Source of the DNA: Ardenticatenia bacterium
GTDB taxonomy: Bacteria; Chloroflexota; Anaerolineae; 4572-78; NAK82
NCBI GenBank assembly: GCA_003130875.1
Contig: QEXY01000103.1
Location: forward strand, 1 to 35,472
Direction: 5' to 3'
Length of the DNA stretch: 35,472 nt
Shown piece after piece: positions 578 through 27,051 of this stretch. Numbering within the stretch: the first letter of the stretch is position 1; every line of letters starts with the position of its first letter. The notes below the pieces were generated by a model. That model searched no databases and was not told the DNA's origin. It saw only the letters and a program-made list of their open reading frames with translations. Both the position numbers and the translations under genes were made by a program.

Positions 578-1417
578 TCAATCTCTTTCGTGCTGAGAGC
601 TGTCCTGTATCGCCAATGCGTATACAGCCCTCCTGGACCAACCGGATGCACGCGCGACCTCACGCGCTGCAGCGCTGCGGTCAAACCCCTGGGCCAGGAG
701 CGAAGCGAGGGCCTCGCGGACGCGTGCTTCGTCCCAAGCCGTGGGTGGCAGTGCACCACCCACCACCAAGGTAAACTCACCACGAGGTTGGCGCTCTCGC
801 CATTCTGCATGGGCCTCTGCCAACGTACCTCGCCAAACTTCTTCATGGAGCTTGGTCAGTTCGCGGCAGATGGCACAAGGACGGTTGCCGCCCAAGATGA
901 CCTCCATGTCGGCCAGTGTCTGACGCAAACGGTGGGGCGCTTCGAAACAAACCAGTGTGGCGCGTACGCCGCTCACCTCGTGCAGTAAGGCACGGCGTGG
1001 GGCCGCACGTCGCGGCAGAAAACCCAAGAAGAAGAAACGGTCGCTTGGCAACCCGCTTACCGCAAGCGCGGTAATAATTGCCGATGGACCGGGTATGGGC
1101 ACCACCGCTATTCCATGCTCCAGAGCGGCGCGTACCAATTCATAACCAGGATCAGAAAAAAGCGGCGTACCTGCTTCACACACGAGCGCCACGTTTCCAT
1201 AGCGCAGTGTCTCGAGCAGCTGGTCGAGACGTTGGAGCTCGTTGTGCTCGAAGTAGCTCAGCATGGGCTTTTCGATCCCGAAGTGTGCCAACAGCCGGCC
1301 TGTCGTGCGGGTATCTTCTGTTGCGATCAGGTCACACTCGCGCAACACGCGCAATGCGCGCAGCGTAATGTCTTCGAGGTTTCCGATCGGTGTGGCAACA
1401 AGATAGAGGATGCCCAT
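578..1417 (-). CDS. rsmI: 16S rRNA (cytidine(1402)-2'-O)-methyltransferase RsmI
   Basis: This 279-residue protein (E. coli RsmI is 286) should 2'-O-methylate C1402 in the 16S rRNA decoding centre using S-adenosylmethionine. Family motifs are in order: LVATPIGNLEDIT at the N-terminus, EDTRTTGRLL, a Gly-rich segment GTPLFSDPG, and PGPSAIITAL with the tetrapyrrole-methylase fold, then a helical C-terminal tail. I placed the start at the ATG at 1417, because residues upstream of MGILYLVATPIGN are not family-like and this ATG shares one base with the selA stop (TAATG). That indicates translational coupling at the end of the membrane protein-selA-rsmI operon. Confidence 0.95.
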   Translation of the reverse strand: MGILYLVATPIGNLEDITLRALRVLRECDLIATEDTRTTGRLLAHFGIEKPMLSYFEHNELQRLDQLLETLRYGNVALVCEAGTPLFSDPGYELVRAALEHGIAVVPIPGPSAIITALAVSGLPSDRFFFLGFLPRRAAPRRALLHEVSGVRATLVCFEAPHRLRQTLADMEVILGGNRPCAICRELTKLHEEVWRGTLAEAHAEWRERQPRGEFTLVVGGALPPTAWDEARVREALASLLAQGFDRSAAAREVARASGWSRRAVYALAIQDSSQHERD

Positions 1418-2835
1418 TAGTGCGTCACAGATGGTGTTGCAAAGTCGCAAAGTGCCAGACGCAGCATAGCCAGCAATTCTTCATCCTGCTCGGGAAGTAC
1501 CGTACGTGCGTCGAGCAGGACATGTCCTTCTTCTATGCGGGCAACCACAGGCGTCTTCCCTCGGGGTGGCTGACGCAGGTGATATGCTAGGCTGTCTGGT
1601 GAGGACACAGCCAACGCCAGAGCCCAAGAGGGTAACTGCTGACCGGGCAGGCTGCCGCCGCCCACTGTCGCCTGAGTGGATATAATGGTAGTGTTCTTCA
1701 CGCCCCAGGCTTGCAGACGGCGCCGCCACCTTTGTACCCGTTGATGCAACGCCTCCGGCTGTGCAGCGATCATGCGCCACACGGGCAGCTCTTCCAGCGC
1801 CCGCCCTTCCAGGTAGCTGAGGAGCGTTGCTTCTAACGCCGCAAGGGTTGTCTTGTCCACTCGAACCGCACGGGCCAAGGGATGACGACGCAGGCGCGCG
1901 ATGAACTCCGCCTTCCCCAGAATCAAACCCGCCTGGGGACCTCCCAGCAGTTTGTCCCCGCTGGCGGTGACCAGTGCTGCGCCGGCAGCAATGCTCTCTT
2001 GAAGAGTGGGCTCGTGAGCCAGACCAAATTGCTGCGTGTCCAGCAAGCTCCCGCTGCCCAAATCGTCCATAACCGGTACTCCATGCTCTTCGCCCAACGC
2101 CACCAATTCCTTCAGAGTCGGTTCATAGACAAATCCACTCAATGTGAAGTTGCTGTGATGTACGCGCAGAATAAGCGCTGTGTTGACCGGATGCAAAGCC
2201 TCCGCATAATCGCGCACATATGTGCGGTTTGTGGTGCCAACCTCGACCAAGCGGGCGCCACTTTGACGCATCACATCCGGAATCCGGAAGCCACCGCCGA
2301 TCTCAACCAGTTGCCCACGGCTGATCAAAACCTCGCGGTCGCGCGCCAACGCACTTAGCACCAGCAAAACTGCCGCGGCATTGTTGTTGACCACGAGGGC
2401 ATCCTCAGCGCCGGTGAGTTGTTTCAATAAACGTGCAGCGTGGACGTAGCGCGAACCTCGCTCACCTTCCGTCAGATCATATTCCAGGTTACAGTAGCCG
2501 GCTGCGATACCAGCAGCCGCGCGGCGCGCACGCTCAGAAAGTGGAGCGCGGCCTAGATTCGTGTGAATGATCACTCCACTTGCGTTGATGACAGGCACTA
2601 GACTGGGGGTCAGCGCCATAGACAGCCGTTGCGCAGTATCCGCCAAGAGCGCTTCGTGGGATGGCGCAATGTCTCCCGCCTGAATCGCCTGGCGCGCCGC
2701 TTGCAATGCCGTGCGCAATGCTTCGGTCACGCGCGCATGTCCATATTGGGCAATGAGCTCCCGTGCCTCAGGCAGTTCCAGCAAACGGGACACAGCAGGA
2801 AGCTTGCGCAACTCTTCCACACTCATCGCATCCAT
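1417..2835 (-). CDS. selA: L-seryl-tRNA(Sec) selenium transferase SelA
   Basis: SelA is a PLP enzyme that converts seryl-tRNA(Sec) to selenocysteinyl-tRNA(Sec) using selenophosphate, so this genome probably makes selenoproteins. The protein is 472 residues (E. coli 463). It has the N-terminal helical start LRKLPAVSRLLELP, the INASGVIIHTNLGRAPL segment, and the PLP lysine in SGDKLLGGPQAG, which falls at about Lys295. I chose the ATG at 2835, two bases past the stop of the upstream membrane-protein gene and preceded by GGAGAG; the ATG at 2826 is an alternative. It is the middle gene of a leftward operon. No selB, selC or selD is visible in the window, and I saw no in-frame TGA selenoprotein gene here. 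Confidence 0.95.
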   Translation of the reverse strand: MDAMSVEELRKLPAVSRLLELPEARELIAQYGHARVTEALRTALQAARQAIQAGDIAPSHEALLADTAQRLSMALTPSLVPVINASGVIIHTNLGRAPLSERARRAAAGIAAGYCNLEYDLTEGERGSRYVHAARLLKQLTGAEDALVVNNNAAAVLLVLSALARDREVLISRGQLVEIGGGFRIPDVMRQSGARLVEVGTTNRTYVRDYAEALHPVNTALILRVHHSNFTLSGFVYEPTLKELVALGEEHGVPVMDDLGSGSLLDTQQFGLAHEPTLQESIAAGAALVTASGDKLLGGPQAGLILGKAEFIARLRRHPLARAVRVDKTTLAALEATLLSYLEGRALEELPVWRMIAAQPEALHQRVQRWRRRLQAWGVKNTTIISTQATVGGGSLPGQQLPSWALALAVSSPDSLAYHLRQPPRGKTPVVARIEEGHVLLDARTVLPEQDEELLAMLRLALCDFATPSVTH

Positions 2836-2837
2836 CC

Positions 2838-3224
2838 TCACTCTCCGCCACGCGTCAGAAAGAACGTTTCGGTCAACATCAATACCCCACCGATGATCAA
2901 CACCAAGGTGAGGCTGAGAAACCCCTCTTTTTGCAGCCAGCTGCATAAAACGCCAAATAACGCCACACTCACTCCCTCGCGCAGCAGGCGCAACGGATCT
3001 TTGCGCAACCAGTTTGGATGCGCAAAACGTTGATTCAGCACCCCAGCGACGGCCAGAGTAAGCCCTGCCAGGGCAATGGCCAATAAGGTCAAGAACAACC
3101 CTTGCATCAGCTCAGTGGGATAGGTGTGTATCACGAGGTACCATATGCCCACTGAGCTTACCCCAAAGCTGAGCACACCGATGGCAATCCAAGCTCCCAG
3201 TGTCACTTGCCTGCCTTCCCCCAT
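2838..3224 (-). CDS. Small integral membrane protein of unknown function
   Basis: I do not recognise this protein. From the ATG at 3224 it is 128 residues with about four hydrophobic helices. Two lie in the first 60 residues (GAWIAIGVLSFGVSSVGIWY, then LFLTLLAIALAGLTLAVAGV), followed by a basic loop (NWLRKDPLRLLREG) and two helices at the end. The frame stays open upstream to 3329, but the upstream residues read like non-coding sequence and a promoter lies inside that stretch, so the shorter start is favoured. It is the first gene of the operon with selA and rsmI, ending two bases before selA. Nothing ties it to selenium metabolism beyond position. Confidence 0.65.
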   Translation of the reverse strand: MGEGRQVTLGAWIAIGVLSFGVSSVGIWYLVIHTYPTELMQGLFLTLLAIALAGLTLAVAGVLNQRFAHPNWLRKDPLRLLREGVSVALFGVLCSWLQKEGFLSLTLVLIIGGVLMLTETFFLTRGGE

Positions 3225-6119: not shown

Positions 6120-7568
6120 TCAACTGTTCCCCAATTCTCGTTCTGCACGCAAAACCACTTCGCGTAGTGCACGCTTGACATCCTCGGACAGAGAAGATGG
6201 ACGGTGCTCAGCCAAGATCGCCTCCACCCGTTGCGCCGCTCGCATTTCCATCGAGGTTGCCCCGTGAGAAGCCCAAACAGCATAGACATTCTTATCGGTC
6301 AGCCGTGAATAATGCGCCTCACGGAAGTGACGCAGAGTGTGGGGATGCTCGAGATAGCTTCCGGTTGGCCCCAACTCCTCAACCACTTCAAGTGCCAGCG
6401 TTTCGTCATCCACGCGAACCCCTTTAGTGGCAGCACGTAGAAAGCTCAGGATATCATCGGCGACCACCATTAAGGCCAAGGAACCCTGCATGCCGGCGTC
6501 CATAAAGCCCACATCATGGACGAAGTTGGCCCCGTGCAGCAACGCTGTCATTAGACTGAGCGTGACCTCGAAACCACATTGCTGGTCAAGCACCTTGGAA
6601 TCGGTGGCACCCCCCAGCCCAAAGACGGGAAGGTCGTAAAATTTCCCCATTGCGGTTGCCACTCCCTGTTCCTCAGCCAAGACGTAATTGCCCACCATCG
6701 TTTGCAGATTGTAAGGACCACCGTTCCAGCCGGCCACAGCCACCGGCGCCCCCTCGCGTATCAATTGCGTCAGGACAATGCCCAACAGAGTGCCGGCGTT
6801 CAGCATCGCCATACAACCGGCGGTGGTGACCGGCGCATTGACCCCTCCCGCATTAAGAGGGATATACATCTGAGGCAGGCCACGTTCCGCCAGATATATG
6901 GATTTCTGCAAGGCTTCGGCGTTGGCGATCAGGCCGGAGGTCAGATTAATGTAACATGCTGCGAACGGACGCTCCTGGAACGCTTGACGACTGCCCGCCA
7001 CAATTTCGCACATTTCCACTGCCGCCACGCAACCGGCGAGATCGGGGGTCACGAATACAATCGGTTTGGTCGTGTGATTCAGCATGGCTTCCATCTGATA
7101 GCGGTCGTAAATGCGACCGTCCACATCTGAGGGCAGAAACATCGACATGACAAAATCGATCTCAGGTAGCGCATCCTGGACGATCGCTGCTTCGATGACA
7201 TCCTGAAGCACCGCTTTGCGGCGCGTTCCGGTGCGATGATCGAGCACGTAGAGGCAATCGGAGCCACCACCAAAATAGCAACGATACCCGCCTGCCCGGA
7301 TCACCACACGTCCATTACGGTCACACAGGCGCATCTGATGGGGCACCGTACTCAATGCACGCTGCACCATGGTCTCCGACAGACGCACCCGAATGCCGTC
7401 CACCCGCGCGCCACCGCGTCGGAGCAATTCGCGCGCTTCTGCGTAGTGCACATCCACCCCTACCCGATCGAGGATTTCCAAGCTGGCTGCATGGATGTGT
7501 TCGCATTCTTTTCTGCTCAAACGGCTGTACGGGGCACTGGCAATAGGTACTTGGTGAGCCTCAATCAT
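6120..7568 (-). CDS. MttB-family (trimethylamine methyltransferase-like) protein, non-pyrrolysine, copy 1
   Basis: Members of this superfamily move a methyl group from a quaternary or tertiary amine to the cobalt of a partner corrinoid protein. The frame has no internal TAG, so it is a non-pyrrolysine member, the class that includes glycine-betaine, carnitine and proline-betaine methyltransferases. It has the N-terminal repeat-like CEHIHAASLEILDRVGVDVH, TTKPIVFVTPD, the GGATDSKVLDQQCGFE segment, and the C-terminal LGPTGSYLEHPHTLRHFRE signature. The frame extends far upstream into glpK sequence; the ATG at 7568 gives 482 residues, the normal family size. It lies 28 bases after the glpK stop. 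Its substrate is unknown, and no corrinoid-protein gene is adjacent. The C-terminal motif fits the canonical subfamily better than copies 3 and 4 do. Confidence 0.85.
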   Translation of the reverse strand: MIEAHQVPIASAPYSRLSRKECEHIHAASLEILDRVGVDVHYAEARELLRRGGARVDGIRVRLSETMVQRALSTVPHQMRLCDRNGRVVIRAGGYRCYFGGGSDCLYVLDHRTGTRRKAVLQDVIEAAIVQDALPEIDFVMSMFLPSDVDGRIYDRYQMEAMLNHTTKPIVFVTPDLAGCVAAVEMCEIVAGSRQAFQERPFAACYINLTSGLIANAEALQKSIYLAERGLPQMYIPLNAGGVNAPVTTAGCMAMLNAGTLLGIVLTQLIREGAPVAVAGWNGGPYNLQTMVGNYVLAEEQGVATAMGKFYDLPVFGLGGATDSKVLDQQCGFEVTLSLMTALLHGANFVHDVGFMDAGMQGSLALMVVADDILSFLRAATKGVRVDDETLALEVVEELGPTGSYLEHPHTLRHFREAHYSRLTDKNVYAVWASHGATSMEMRAAQRVEAILAEHRPSSLSEDVKRALREVVLRAERELGNS

Positions 7569-7596
7569 AGAAAGATCTATCCCTTCGTGAAAGGAT

Positions 7597-9108
7597 TTAC
7601 TCAAGCCATCCGATGGCACGTTCGACCGCTTGTAGCCAGCGTCGGTAGAGGCGTTCCCGTCGCGTGGCATCCATGTGAGGCTGCCAACACTGATCGGAGA
7701 TCCATTGAGCACGCAGCGCGTCCGTCGAGCTCCACAGCCCTGCTGCCAGGCCCGCAGCATAAGCGGCGCCCAGAGCAGTGGTCTCGCTGACCCGTGGACG
7801 CACCACCGGCACACCTAAGATATCGGCCTGGAACTGCATCAACAGCGCGTTGGAGACCATACCCCCATCCACCTTGAGCAGCTGGATGGCTATGCCGGTG
7901 TCGCGCTGCATCGCCTCCAGGACGGCACGCGTCTGAAAAGCTGTTGCCTCCAGTGCGGCCCGGGCTAGATGACCCTTATGGGTATGACGCGTCAATCCGA
8001 TGATGAGTCCACGCGCATCCGCACGCCAATAGGGCGCAAACAAACCCGAGAATGCCGGCACGAAGTAGACATCGCCGTTGTCCTCAACCGTGCGTGCCAG
8101 GGTCTCCACCTCAGCTGAGGTGGAGATGATGCCCAAGTTGTCACGCAACCACTGCACCAGTGCTCCGGCAATGGCGACGGAACCCTCCAGAGCGTACACC
8201 ACCGGTTGATCACCCAAACGATAGGCCACCGTGGTGAGCAATCCGCTCGATGAGGGCAAAACCGCATGACCGGTGTTCAGCAACATGAAATAGCCAGTGC
8301 CATAGGTGTTTTTCACCTCACCCACCGAGAAACAGGCCTGACCCACCAAAGCAGCTTGCTGATCTCCCAGAATGCCGCACACGGGTAATGTGGCATCGAA
8401 AGGACCTCGCCGCTCAGTATAGGCGTTTGTCTTCGGATCGGCAGAGGGCACAATGCGCGGCAGCATCTGGCGTGGAATGCCAAACAAGCGGAGAAGCTCT
8501 TCATCCCAATCAAGGGTGTGCAAATTCATCAGCAGGGTACGGCTGGCATTAGTCACGTCGGTGATGTGTATGCCGCCATACGGGCCGCCGCTGAGCCACC
8601 ACACGAGCCAGCTGTCCACCGTGCCAAAAAGAGCATCACCGCGTTCTGCATCGGAACGGAGTCCGGGCACGTGCTCCAGCAACCAATACAGTTTGGGAGC
8701 CGAGAAATAAGTAGTGAGGGGCAGGCCGGTTATAGCGCGCAGATGGTCCTGCACTCCCTCCTCCGCCAGCCTTTGACAGATTTCGCGGGTACGTGTGTCC
8801 TGCCACACGATTGCGGGATAGTAGGGTTTCCCCGTGTGGCGATTCCATACGACGATGGTCTCGCGCTGATTGGTGATGCCCACCGCGGTCAATGCCTGAG
8901 GTGCCACGTTTGCTATAGCGCGTGCCTCGCGGATTACTTCTTGAGTAGCTTGCCAGATTTCTAAAGGGTCATGTTCAACCCAGCCGGGTTGTGGGTAAAA
9001 TTGGCGATGTTCCCGCTGGACTATGGTGCGCAAATGACCGTTTTGATCGAAAAGCGCACAGCGTGTACTGGTGGTACCTTGATCGATGGCTACGATAAAC
9101 GCGTTCAT
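7597..9108 (-). CDS. glpK: Glycerol kinase GlpK
   Basis: GlpK phosphorylates glycerol to sn-glycerol-3-phosphate with ATP in the cytoplasm. The 503-residue protein matches family length (E. coli 502). It shows the FGGY-kinase N-terminal phosphate loop [17 protein letters not shown], the glycerol-binding [18 protein letters not shown] and IVWQDTR segments, [11 protein letters not shown] in the ATPase core, and [19 protein letters not shown] in the C-terminal domain. The start [10 protein letters not shown] at 9108 is standard; the open frame upstream lacks family sequence. A 7-bp hairpin lies in its leader, and no strong promoter or ribosome site is obvious. It is the first gene of a leftward cluster with an MttB homologue and a PLP enzyme. 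No glpF or glpD is nearby. Confidence 0.93.
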
Positions 9109-9234: not shown

Positions 9235-9340
9235 GCACTTCTGAGGGTGTTGAAAAAGTCCATCGACCGCTCAGATTTTCATAGGAAAACGGGCCAATAA
9301 AGCGGGTAACTAAAGGGTTTTTCAACACTCTCGCACTTCT
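9235..9340. mobile_element. MITE-like 90-bp inverted-repeat element with 8-bp target duplication
   Basis: The element itself is 9243-9332. Its ends are 15-base terminal inverted repeats, GAGGGTGTTGAAAAA (9243-9257) and TTTTTCAACACTCTC (9318-9332), matching at 14 of 15 positions. It is bracketed by an exact 8-base direct repeat GCACTTCT at 9235-9242 and 9333-9340, as a transposase-made target duplication would leave. It is too short to code for anything, so it would have to be moved in trans by a transposase elsewhere in the genome. No second copy was seen in the window. I do not assign it to an IS family. Confidence 0.8.
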
Positions 9341-9345
9341 AGCGC

Positions 9346-9373
9346 TTGACAAATGGGGCATTTGTGCTAAAAT
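9346..9373 (+). promoter_or_regulatory. Strong sigma-70-type promoter upstream of the sugar ABC operon
   Basis: A perfect TTGACA (9346-9351), a 16-base spacer ending in TGC (an extended -10), and TAAAAT (9368-9373). It starts 6 bases after the right target duplication of the MITE-like element and points to the binding-protein gene about 645 bases downstream. Confidence 0.7.
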
Positions 9374-9375
9374 AT

Positions 9376-9388
9376 CAGGTATGACCTG
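9376..9388. promoter_or_regulatory. Palindromic operator overlapping the transcription start
   Basis: CAGGT-ATG-ACCTG is a perfect 5-3-5 inverted repeat placed 2 bases after the -10 hexamer, where a bound repressor would block initiation. The core GT-N3-AC resembles half-sites of FadR-subfamily GntR regulators. That assignment is an inference; no regulator gene is in the window. Confidence 0.5.
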
Positions 9389-9421
9389 TAAGATGGTATT
9401 GCCACAACTCCTTCGGCATAG

Positions 9422-9850: not shown

Positions 9851-10018
9851 TGCAGGATTGCCACCTTGTGACTGAGCAGTTATGCAGCAAATTGCCACAA
9901 CAGAAAGGAGGGATGCCAGGCACCATCGGACACCTGAAAACAAGATTGGCGAAAGAGTATTGTCCTTTGATATGCTACTCTAAGTCCAATGAGTCAATCA
10001 GGAAGGAGGAAAGGAAAA

Positions 10019-11380
10019 ATGTCTGGTGAGGTTCTGCGCATTTCGCGACGTGACTTTATCAAGCTGGCAGCCAGCAGCGCGATCGCGGCAGGCATCTACC
10101 CATTTATGCGGGGTGCCCCAAATACGGCATGGGCTGCGGGAGAGAATCTCCGGATGTGGTGGTGGGGTGAACAAGAAGCACCCGGCCTGGAGAAATGGGT
10201 TAAAGACAGCGTCGCTATGTTCGAAAAAGAAACGGGTGTGACCATCGAGGTGACCTTGCAGGATACCACGACGGTTATCTCCGAGTTTCAAACCGCTTCA
10301 GCAGCTGGTAACGCGCCAGACATCCAGTTCCTGTGGAACGGCATTTACCATATGGAAAGTGTTTGGTTGGGTTACCTTGAACCACTCAACGGCCTCATCT
10401 CCGATGAGCTGCTCAAGGAAGCGGATGCAACCGTGCTCAGCATCTACCAGGGCAAGCAGTATCGACTGGGTTGGTATGCTGCCTCCCCTATGTGGCTCTA
10501 CAACAAGGAGATGTTTGACAAAGCGGGCCTGAATGCGGACGAACCACCCACTACTTGGGAAGGGTTGCTGGATGCCTGTGACAAGCTCAAGTCCAAAGGG
10601 TTTACCCCCATCGTGGGTGGTCTGAAAGATGGCCCTTGGGGGGAGTGGTATATGGGGCACGCACTCGGCCCGAATCTGGACACCCCCGCTGAGGCGCTCC
10701 AGCTGTTCATTGGCGAGCTGGATTGGCGTGAACCCAAATACCATGAGCACTGGACCAAGCTGGAGCAACTTTGGAAAGCCGGTTACATGAATGAGGATAT
10801 GAACTCAATTGATCTTTACCCGGGCATGGACTATTTCGGTGCCGGCAAAGGCGCAATGACTGCTATTGTCATCCCCACCTTGGGAAAGCAAGCCAGCATG
10901 TTAGGGGCAGAGAAAGTCGGATTGATGGTCTTCCCCGCAGGCGGCAAGGGCAAGATGAACAACAAGCCCATCCGGGATCTGCAGGGATTAGGGATTTCAT
11001 CGCAGAGTCAGTATAAAGAGATCGCGGCGAAGTTCCTTGAGTTTCTGCACACCCCAGAACGCGTCCAGGCCATTTGGACTGACTCGAAAGCACTGCCTAC
11101 TGATGCCTCATGGGATGGCACTGCCATCGAGGATCCCCTGTTCCGCGAAGCTTGGAAGACCTGGGTAGTAAACCCGGACGCTGTGCCTTACATTTCTAAC
11201 TTGATGCCCGTGATGTTTTGGACCGACGCGATGTTTGTTAACTCACAGAAGATCATAGCCGGAGAATACAACGGCGAACAGGCCGGTGAAAACGCCCAGG
11301 CGGTCGCGACCAAGTGGCGCGAGCAGAATCCGGACTTGCTGGAGCACTACCAAATCTGGGCTGAGGACTTGAAGCTATAA
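10019..11380 (+). CDS. Sugar ABC transporter substrate-binding protein, Tat-exported
   Basis: This is an extracytoplasmic family-1 (MalE-like) solute-binding protein of 453 residues. The N-terminus has a twin-arginine signal (SRRDFIKLAASSAIAAG) followed by a cleavage-like APNTAWAAG, so it is probably exported folded. The mature part shows the family's FEKETGVTIEV, APDIQFLWNG, YNKEMFDKAGL and PPTTWEGLLDACDKLK. I chose the ATG at 10019 because AAGGAGG lies 9 bases upstream and the signal peptide follows directly; the ATG at 9989 would bury it. Two permease genes follow, but no ATPase, so a shared MsmX/UgpC-type ATPase must serve it. The ligand is unknown; the downstream enzymes suggest a sugar or sugar acid. 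A hairpin separates it from the permeases. Confidence 0.92.
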   Translation: MSGEVLRISRRDFIKLAASSAIAAGIYPFMRGAPNTAWAAGENLRMWWWGEQEAPGLEKWVKDSVAMFEKETGVTIEVTLQDTTTVISEFQTASAAGNAPDIQFLWNGIYHMESVWLGYLEPLNGLISDELLKEADATVLSIYQGKQYRLGWYAASPMWLYNKEMFDKAGLNADEPPTTWEGLLDACDKLKSKGFTPIVGGLKDGPWGEWYMGHALGPNLDTPAEALQLFIGELDWREPKYHEHWTKLEQLWKAGYMNEDMNSIDLYPGMDYFGAGKGAMTAIVIPTLGKQASMLGAEKVGLMVFPAGGKGKMNNKPIRDLQGLGISSQSQYKEIAAKFLEFLHTPERVQAIWTDSKALPTDASWDGTAIEDPLFREAWKTWVVNPDAVPYISNLMPVMFWTDAMFVNSQKIIAGEYNGEQAGENAQAVATKWREQNPDLLEHYQIWAEDLKL

Positions 11381-11397
11381 CACCTCCCTCTGTCTTG

Positions 11398-11430
11398 GCT
11401 CCCCTTCCCCAAAACTGAAGGAAGGGGAGC
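11398..11430 (+). promoter_or_regulatory. Intercistronic hairpin that hides the permease ribosome-binding site
   Basis: Perfect 11-bp arms GCTCCCCTTCC (11398-11408) and GGAAGGGGAGC (11420-11430) with an 11-base loop. The right arm contains the GGGGAG Shine-Dalgarno sequence of the permease gene that starts at 11434. It could both cap the binding-protein transcript and reduce permease translation, which suits the excess of binding protein that ABC importers need. Confidence 0.65.
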
Positions 11431-11433
11431 TCG

Positions 11434-12345
11434 ATGATCACATTGGGAAAAACGGAGCGACGTGCGCGTATGTTGCGGACTAAACCATGGACGCCCTACT
11501 TATATCTCGCACCGGTATCCCTGCTGATGCTGTTTGTGTTCGGCTATCCTCTGATAGCTATCTTCGACTTCAGCACGCGGCGCATTCGGGGAGCCAGCGG
11601 ACCTTTCATCGGGTTGGAGAATTACCGCCAGATCTTCAAGGATGAAGTCTTTCAACAGGCAATTTTGCACAACGCGCAGCTGCTACTGGCTGTGCCCATC
11701 CTGGTTATTGTGGGTATCGTGCTAGCCGTGTTGCTCTATGAGCGCGTAGCAGGTTGGCGCATCTATCGCACGATTCTCTTTGCTCCCTTCATTATAGCGA
11801 TACCGGTCATCGGGATCGTCTTCAGCAACATGCTCTCTCTAAACGGTGCCGTCAACGAATTGTTGCGTGCAGTGGGATTGGATTTTCTGGCATTGGACTG
11901 GCTGGGAAGCGCCCAAATGGCATTGTGGTCAGTGATGGCAATTATCATCTGGCATGAAATGGGCTTTGGCGTGGTGCTTTTTCTGGCGCGATTGCTGAGT
12001 CTCAATGAGGAGATTCAGGAGGCAGCCCGAATTGATGGCGCTGGTTGGTGGCAACGTTTGTGGTATGTCACCATTCCGCAACTCAAGGACGTCACAGAGT
12101 TCTATGCTGTGGTCAGTGTCATCACTATGCTAGCGTGGGTCTTCCCGTTCGTATATGTGATGACGCGGGGTGGCCCAGGCAACGCCACACAAGTGATGGA
12201 GCTCTACATCTTCAACTTCGCCTTTCGCAACTCGTTACCAGGGATCGCCTCGGCCGTAGCGGTCATCCTATTCCTGATTACGCTGGCATTGATGATACCC
12301 CTCTTCCAGCTGCGTGCCCGAACTGAGATGGAAGGAATCGAATGA
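11434..12345 (+). CDS. Sugar ABC transporter permease, MalF type
   Basis: This 303-residue inner-membrane permease has about six hydrophobic helices, the first at LYLAPVSLLMLFVFGYPLI. The cytoplasmic EAA loop, EAARIDGAGWWQRLWYVTIP, lies around residues 193-212; this is where the transporter's ATPase docks. Size and motif fit the MalF-like subunit of carbohydrate importers (CUT1). The start at 11434 uses the GGGGAG that sits inside the upstream hairpin; an internal ATG at 11470 is a possible alternative. Its stop overlaps the next permease start by 4 bases. Confidence 0.93.
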   Translation: MITLGKTERRARMLRTKPWTPYLYLAPVSLLMLFVFGYPLIAIFDFSTRRIRGASGPFIGLENYRQIFKDEVFQQAILHNAQLLLAVPILVIVGIVLAVLLYERVAGWRIYRTILFAPFIIAIPVIGIVFSNMLSLNGAVNELLRAVGLDFLALDWLGSAQMALWSVMAIIIWHEMGFGVVLFLARLLSLNEEIQEAARIDGAGWWQRLWYVTIPQLKDVTEFYAVVSVITMLAWVFPFVYVMTRGGPGNATQVMELYIFNFAFRNSLPGIASAVAVILFLITLALMIPLFQLRARTEMEGIE

Positions 12346-13235
12346 GCGTGCGAGAAATGCGAGCCACCTTGGAAGAGGTGCACAGCGCGACGCGTGTCAG
12401 CGTGTCGAGACGTCGATTCGACTGGTCAGTCATTATCAAACAGCTGGTGCTGCTGCTGGCTGCTTTCACGGTTTTATTTCCTGCCTATTTCATGGTGATC
12501 ACCCCCCTCAAAACTCAAGAAGCTTACTCGCTCAGCAAGCTGGGATTCCCTACTCAGATATACTTGGGCAACTTTGAGACGGCACTGCGCGGCGGTCGCT
12601 TCTTCCTGTGGTTCGGTAACAGCATCATCCTGTCGGTGGGAGCTGTGGCACTCTCGACGCTGGTCGCCGCTATGGGAGCTTTTGCGACTTCACGGATGAA
12701 CTTCCGTGGACGCAATTTGTTGCTCTCGCTCATTAGCTCTTTGATGGTGATCCCACCAGTGGTAATGCTTATCCCACTCTTCTTACTCTTGACCCGGATC
12801 AAGATGACCAGCACTTATCCAGGTGCTATCCTGGTTTATGCTGGCCTGCTTGCCCCCTTCTCGGTTTATCTGCTCAACAATTTCTTCCGCACCATCCCGC
12901 ACGAGATCATCGAATCGGCACTGATGGATGGCGCCTCACCGCTGGATATTCTCTTTCGTATTATGCTTCCCCTTTCGGCGCCAGCATTGATGACGCTGAT
13001 CACGGTAAATATGCTGTGGGTCTGGAATGACCTTCTAATCGCCCTGGTCTTGTTGCCCGAAGACAGCATGCGCACCCTGATGGTGGGTATCACCGTGTTC
13101 GGCTCACGTTACAACGCAGATGTTCCAGTATCTATGGCGGGCATGTTAATGGCCAGTGTTCCCATCTTCTTGATCTACCTGTTCGGACAACGTTACTTCA
13201 TTCGCGGCTTGGTAGCCGGCGCCATCAAGGGATAG
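12342..13235 (+). CDS. Sugar ABC transporter permease, MalG type
   Basis: The 297-residue partner permease begins at an ATGA overlap with the MalF-type gene. It has about six membrane helices after a charged cytoplasmic N-terminus of about 28 residues. The EAA-type loop [20 protein letters not shown] lies at about residues 188-207, and the ending [13 protein letters not shown] is the classic C-terminus of CUT1 MalG-like subunits. With the upstream protein it should form the heterodimeric channel for the Tat-exported binding protein. Confidence 0.95.
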
Positions 13236-25573: not shown

Positions 25574-27051
25574 ATGAAAAAAGGGCCTGCAGGGTGGCTG
25601 GCTAAACTATCTCTCGGACAATGACTTGGAACGAATCCACCTTGCAGCATTAGCACTCTTGGAAGATCCCGGTATCTTCAGCGACTCGGAGGTTATCCTC
25701 GAAATCTTCGAGCGTGGTGATGCATGGGTGGACCGTGAATCGCGTACTATCCGCCTTCCAGCCGAACTGGTGGGAAACGCCCTGAAAACCGCCCCTTCTA
25801 CCTTATGTGCTGCATGGTCGTGAGCCAGCAATGGACCTCTTGCTCGAGCCAGGGCGTGTGTACTATGGCATGGGTGGTACTTCAGAACCTTATTTCTGGG
25901 ATTACGCCGCCGGAAGGCCACGCACACCAACTAGTGCCGACATGGTATCCGCTACACGCGTCGGACAGGCGTTGCCGAGCGTGGATTTCATTATGGCATT
26001 ATGTTCGGCGGGCGACAGGCCGAAGGAGGTGGCCTTCTTTTACGAGTACGAGGCTATATTCCGCAATACGACCAAGCCAGTAGTGGTTAGCTCGTTGGGC
26101 CGACGAGCAGTCGCTAGGTTTTTGGAAATGGCGATCGCGGTTTCAGGCGGAGAAGACAAGCTTCGGCAGCGACCATGGGTGGCGATATATGTGACACCGT
26201 TATCACCGCTCCGAGTCACCAAATTGAACGAGGGGATGATCGAGGCAGCGTACTATGGCTGTCCCATCGTGTATTCGCCTGCGCCGCTGTTGGGCGCCAC
26301 TGGCCCGGTAGACCTGCGGGGCGAACTGATTCAAGCAACAGCCGAAGCCCTGTTTGGTCTAGTGATGTCGCAGATGCTCAAGCCAGGCATCCCTTTCATT
26401 TTCGCTCCGCATACACCAGCAATGGACATGCGCACTATGCAAGTCACCTATGCTAGCGCCGAACAAGCAGTCGGGCGTGCGGCAGTAGCGCAGCTGGGGC
26501 GCCACTACAACCTGCCCACATTCAACACTGGCGCTGGCATCGAGTCGAAACTGCCCGATGCAGCCGCAGCGGCTGAAGCAATAATGGGTATGCTGTTGAA
26601 TGCCCTGTCCGGAATGACCCTTACTCAGTGTATGGGCACACTGGCAAGTGGCATGTATGGTTCACTTGAGATGCTGGTCATCTGCGATGAGATGGTACGT
26701 ATGATAGCACGCGTCACCCAAGGTGTTCCAGAGAATGATGAGACCCAGATGATTGAAATGATTCGCCAAGTGGGACACCGGGGCAGTTTCCTCGAGCACG
26801 AGTATACGGCACGGCATTTCAGGCAGGCGATGTTCTTCCCGGAGCTTTTCGGACGTCAAACTATCACACAATGGATCGAAAAGGGAGCAAAGTCCATCAC
26901 AGACGTAGCTCACGAGCGCGTACAGGAGATTCTGGCCACGACCGGTCCGGCGCCGCTGCCAGATGGAGTGGATCAAGCGCTCGATCGAGTTCTGCGCCAG
27001 GTGATTGATGAGTTTCAGACCACGAAGATCAACGAGACCACGTGCCTATGA
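25574..27051 (+). pseudogene. MttB-family methyltransferase, copy 2, with two apparent +1 frameshifts
   Basis: An ATG at 25574 with GGAGG about 9 bases upstream opens MKKG and then stops at 25622. The frame one base over continues the family N-terminus (GGWLNYLSDNDLERIHLAAL) until it stops at 25821-25823. A third frame, open from about 25807 to 27051, supplies the rest. Removing one A from the A6 run at 25577-25582 and the A at 25805 restores one 491-residue protein, with LVGNALKTAPST joined to VLHGREPAMDLLLEPG. That matches the same junction in the other copies. The long third part has SFLEHEYTARHFRQ and VGHRGSF in place of the usual VGPxG. It is either a damaged gene, a sequencing error in two A-rich spots, or, less likely, recoding. 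A restart at GTG 25807 would make a 414-residue protein lacking the N-terminus. Confidence 0.8.

Follow-up and report, generated by a model that had tools for sequence, protein, structure and literature searches.

Upstream of a sugar operon in an Ardenticatenia bacterium, a short repeat-bounded element lies next to a promoter, and the locus raises the question of whether the insertion made the promoter or the promoter attracted the insertion. The window, i.e. the whole stretch of 35,472 nucleotides analysed here, is the entire contig C59 of the assembly G000, which contains 3,489,151 bases in 195 contigs. An earlier note on this DNA had described a MITE-like insertion that may have created or changed the promoter region of the operon. 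The first part of that description is fully borne out and the creation of the promoter is not, so that the interpretation as a whole is partly supported.

The element and its family

The element is a 90-bp MITE at 9243..9332 on the + strand. Its ends are GAGGGTGTTGAAAAA and TTTTTCAACACTCTC, and the 15-bp terminal inverted repeats (TIRs; 9243-9257 and 9318-9332, within the + element) agree at 14 of 15 positions. The 8-bp target-site duplication (TSD) GCACTTCT stands unstranded on either side, at 9235..9242 and, as an exact duplicate, at 9333..9340, confirming what had been noticed from the letters. The TSD is followed on the + strand by a 5-bp spacer (9341..9345), the -35 hexamer TTGACA (9346..9351) and, after a spacing of 16, the -10 hexamer TAAAAT (9368..9373). 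The perfect -35 reported in the earlier note is present, and the gap before it, 5 bases, agrees to within one base with the 6 given there. The promoter presumably drives the first three genes of the sugar operon (9989..13235, +), which encode a solute-binding protein (9989-11380, +) and two ABC permeases (11434-12345 and 12342-13235, +). Elsewhere in the window, genes for two members of the trimethylamine methyltransferase (MTTB) family and for SelA (selenocysteine synthase) lie at 6120-7814 (-), 25807-27051 (+) and 1417-2946 (-).

A search with a 39-bp core and up to three mismatches finds 79 copies in the 3.49-Mb assembly and none for the reversed control pattern, which rules out a chance hairpin or duplication; the further copies that the earlier note had proposed to look for are thus abundant. 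Sixty-three copies with both ends are exactly 90 bp long and differ from the family consensus at 1.7 positions on average, while the window copy has 5 differences. An exact TSD of 5-9 bp flanks 43 of the 69 copies having both ends, the lengths being 5 bp (2 copies), 6 bp (11), 7 bp (21), 8 bp (7) and 9 bp (2). The elements are short, non-coding, bounded by TIRs, flanked by TSDs and dispersed in multiple copies. Judged from these sequences, this is a genuine MITE family that has been recently active. Close copies are absent from the 60 relatives searched, and the two genomes of the same genus (G001 and G002) contain only diverged copies with 72-83% identity. An exact search of a genome contig database with the MITE pattern gave no match, and plasmid searches found nothing.

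In being short, non-coding, TIR-bounded, high in copy number and mostly intergenic, the family resembles the bacterial MITEs Correia, ERIC, BOX and MITEAba12 (review PMC10969869). However, those elements are described as bringing promoters along or as generally intergenic (PMC10969869), whereas the MITE studied here lies at a base-exact distance from a pre-existing -35.

Position of the insertions relative to promoters

Promoter calls throughout this work are consensus matches to TTGACA and TATAAT, i.e. predicted promoters, and the offset is the number of bases from the element end outward to the start of the -35. A match of at least 5/6 to TTGACA begins at offset 12 in 24 of 148 flanks and at offset 13 in 8 of 148, compared with 0-5 at any other offset, and the TATAAT peak then falls at offsets 34-36. 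On at least one side, 40 of the 69 complete copies have a promoter scoring at least 9/12 at offset 10-15; the same score is reached at 1.4% of random places and, in the same flanks, at 0-3% for shifted offsets.

The offset follows the length of the TSD. Duplications of 5, 6, 7 and 8 bp correspond to offsets of 10, 11, 12 and 13, so that the offset minus the TSD is 5, and the window copy conforms with an offset of 13 (8 + 5). Of the 22 flanks that have both a promoter score and an exact TSD, 15 show this difference, and in the other 7 it is scattered between -6 and 0; the spacer between TSD and -35 is accordingly constant in most copies whatever the TSD length. When no promoter score is used, 29 of the 43 TSD copies show TTG exactly at TSD+5 in one or both flanks; for nine other shifts the count is 0-3 of 43. 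The TSD+5 rule is strong but not absolute, TTG being missing from this position in 14 of the 43. Insertions in the own genome have hit the promoters of tRNA genes (tRNA-Ala, tRNA-Leu, tRNA-Asn and tRNA-Val) and that of a TPP riboswitch; for some of these, namely tRNA-Leu, tRNA-Asn and tRNA-Val, the promoter is closer than TSD+5.

A few sites (L130, L145, L146, L115 and L166) show the -10 about 11 bp, or one helical turn, closer, and the -10 peaks fall 28 and 17 bases beyond the TSD. A second insertion register in this genome is possible, with too few sites to be firm.

Related insertion sequences and the transposase

The left 18 bp of the window MITE, GAGGGTGTTGAAAAAGTC, are common to the MITE and to insertion sequences (ISs) in the same genome. 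In the latter, the start of a transposase (MGTKRFKET...) follows the left end (GTCGGT), and a transposase C-terminus precedes the right end (GTCCGC). The earlier note had suggested searching for a full-length IS with the same ends; ISs with these ends exist, although no intact copy is assembled in this genome: only fragments at contig ends are visible because the contigs break inside these repeats. Many contigs (e.g. C92, C106, C168 and C184) stop within an IS or MITE of this kind, which makes the family a main cause of assembly fragmentation. A promoter-like -35 stands at offset 11-15 for about 9 of the 22 IS ends visible in this genome. Since the MITE and the IS have only the end sequence in common and no intact IS is available, the transposase is assigned to the MITE on the basis of shared ends and shared register.

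The transposase fragments of the own genome match DUF772 and IS1182/IS5 models; one query, of 111 residues, is a reading across a frameshift. Other families of the class contain relatives with ~44-54% identity, retrieved by a protein query. Three complete relatives carry DUF772 and DDE_Tnp_1, as IS1182/IS5 elements do, with no Mutator-type model among the family matches. They pass the NCBIfam IS5_4 model (NF033581) with 146-152 bits against a cut-off of 140, but not the IS1182 model (NF033551), for which they reach 187-213 bits against 270; no protein of the own genome exceeds the latter cut-off either. The transposase profile has no relative in the PDB. In the genome contig database, the fragment query yields just 32-33% relatives, from Oligella and Shewanella, and it has no match among viral contigs. 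A profile search across the phylum yields three relatives outside the class, and near these no such ends with the promoter register were seen. Palindromes serve as targets for some members of IS1182, and IS1272 takes the place of an inverted repeat (PMC5678879), unlike the 5-9 bp TSD and promoter register described here. The literature searched, with few subscription journals and no ISfinder, contains no account of IS5/IS1182-type elements that target promoters.

These observations can be accommodated in one model, which we consider likely as a whole. A DUF772+DDE_Tnp_1 transposase of the IS5/IS1182 superfamily, encoded by an IS with the same 18-bp ends, would move the MITE in trans, and the insertion complex would dock on sigma70-type promoters. 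The promoter-proximal cut would be locked exactly 5 bp 5' of the -35 hexamer, while the distal cut would float 5-9 bp farther upstream. A fixed proximal cut and a variable distal cut would leave the promoter intact, with the element ending TSD+5 bp before the -35. The -35 would be read by the transposase or by a complex of transposase and RNA polymerase.

It is quite possible, if short of probable, that the transposase follows promoter-bound RNA polymerase or sigma instead of reading the DNA. A -10 (at least 4/6) occurs at the correct spacing of 16-18 bp in 21 of the 29 copies with TTG at TSD+5, far above the 13 of 125 TTGACA sites found as background in the fetched DNA of the own genome. Such correct spacing at most sites favours guidance by the polymerase, and the presence of tRNA promoters among the targets points in the same direction. 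On the other hand, TTGACA stands at TSD+5 in L111 and L130 but no -10 follows at the right spacing, and L146 and L115 have TTGGAG/TTGAGA at TSD+5, with the apparent promoter in a different register. Sites of this kind, in which the -10 is misplaced or absent, favour direct reading of the TTG.

The transposase would have to be of another kind if the MITE were moved by a Mutator-type (ISKra4/ISLre2) enzyme, the type known to choose such targets (PMC3942029). The nearest published parallel found is that of the TnGBS conjugative transposons, ISLre2 and some ISKra4-group ISs, whose transposases are prokaryotic Mutator-like DDE enzymes (p-MULT 3 and 4) and which insert 15-17 bp from the -35 of sigmaA promoters (Guerillot et al. 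2014, PMC3942029). The likeness is considerable, as those elements also insert at a fixed distance upstream of a sigmaA/sigma70 -35, keep the promoter intact and use either orientation when the TIRs are nearly symmetric, as they are in this MITE. However, the distance here is 10-14 bp, set by TSD+5 with a TSD of 5-9 bp, and the elements are mostly 90-bp MITEs instead of ISs and ICEs. In addition, the ISs with the shared ends encode DUF772/DDE_Tnp_1 rather than a Mutator-like transposase and matched no Mutator-type model, and no ISKra4-family protein is found in the own-genome assembly, which is incomplete, ISLre2 lying outside the search. A Mutator-type mover is thus very unlikely, and we retain the DUF772/DDE_Tnp_1 transposase as the probable one.

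The same register is found in other genera of the class. A search for the TIR pattern in ten genomes gave 5 to 231 matches each and none for the reversed pattern. Among 99 end flanks from these genomes, 40 have a promoter at offset 10-15, compared with 0, 1 and 5 at shifted offsets. TTG stands exactly at TSD+5 in 6 of 11 elements with a TSD and at ±1 or ±2 in none. In a set of 26 ends from other genera, which includes 2 of these 11 elements, 14 have a promoter of at least 9/12 at offset 10-15, whereas shifted offsets give 0-2. Two of the three complete transposase relatives belong to ISs with readable TSDs that end in GAGGGTGTTGAAAAA-like repeats and illustrate the arrangement: L185, upstream of a tRNA-Leu gene, has the 8-bp TSD CGCTGAGC, L188 has the 8-bp TSD CATGTGGG, and in both the -35 begins at offset 13. 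G126 and G084, which belong to other families of the class, contain 231 and 110 terminal-repeat matches; the small elements bounded by such ends form large families there that are apparently undescribed.

The recurrence of the register bears on another account, in which insertion is random, or merely biased towards AT-rich or intergenic DNA, and the copies near promoters are the survivors of selection. The copies do avoid coding sequence, as stop-to-stop frames of at least 200 aa cover 15 of 56 insertion sites against 748 of 1000 random places. Survival, however, explains neither why the register is exact to the base and follows the TSD length nor why it recurs in other genera. The coupling of register to TSD length leads us to reject this account as highly improbable.

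The promoter before the insertion

The promoter region of the sugar operon is conserved in both genomes of the same genus, with the solute-binding protein gene conserved 3' of it. In G001, the orthologous operon is preceded by TTGACA-N16-TATAAT with no element. In G002, the promoter is TTGACA-N17-TACAAT-like, and immediately 5' of it, as with the window copy, lies a heavily degraded MITE relative (contig C208, L073; alignment score 89 against a best of 60 in 300 shuffles). The decayed copy could be an older ortholog that goes back to one insertion common to both genomes, or this promoter could have been hit twice independently. Farther 5', the DNA is unrelated among all three genomes, and because of this difference G001 and G002 offer no clean empty site for the window copy.

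The comparison with relatives proposed in the earlier note thus fails at the window locus itself but succeeds at another copy. At C181:135733 (L170), the own genome reads CTTTCACAGAAA, the MITE and then ACAGAAAATGGATTGACGG, and G002 has the uninterrupted CTTTCACCGAGAATGGATTGACGG, a clean empty site. The promoter TTGACG-N16-TATAAT is found there both in the own genome with the MITE and in G002 without it. That the insertion created or supplied the promoter is hardly credible, even though the element abuts an excellent one, as the -35 and -10 lie outside both element and TSD and a promoter is present where the element is missing, both in G001 and at the other copy's empty site.

On these comparisons causality is reversed, the promoter being the target of the insertion and not its product. 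The MITE may nevertheless modulate the promoter, through a UP-element-like A/T tract or by insulation. Just 3' of the -10, at 9377-9387 and 9394-9404, are two palindrome-like boxes, AGGTATGACCT and TGGTATTGCCA, which are kept in G001 and G002 and look like a GntR/FadR-type operator of the sugar operon.

Insertion at a fixed spacing from promoters has been described as an unusual trait of two Mutator-like lineages (PMC3942029). If it also holds in an unrelated DDE superfamily, promoter-directed insertion arose more than once. It seems to us on balance probable that a clade of the IS5/IS1182 superfamily evolved this behavior independently of the Mutator-type TnGBS/ISLre2/ISKra4 elements, with a transposase that probably reads the TTG of the -35, and has decorated promoters with its ISs and their MITEs across the class. 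The TSD+5 rule provides a base-exact handle on the mechanism, in which one cut would be anchored and the other flexible. Inserted at this spacing, the MITE spreads beside working promoters without breaking them. This suggests a possible route for inserting DNA next to active promoters while leaving genes unbroken, and the insertions may serve as an in-genome promoter map for uncultured bacteria.
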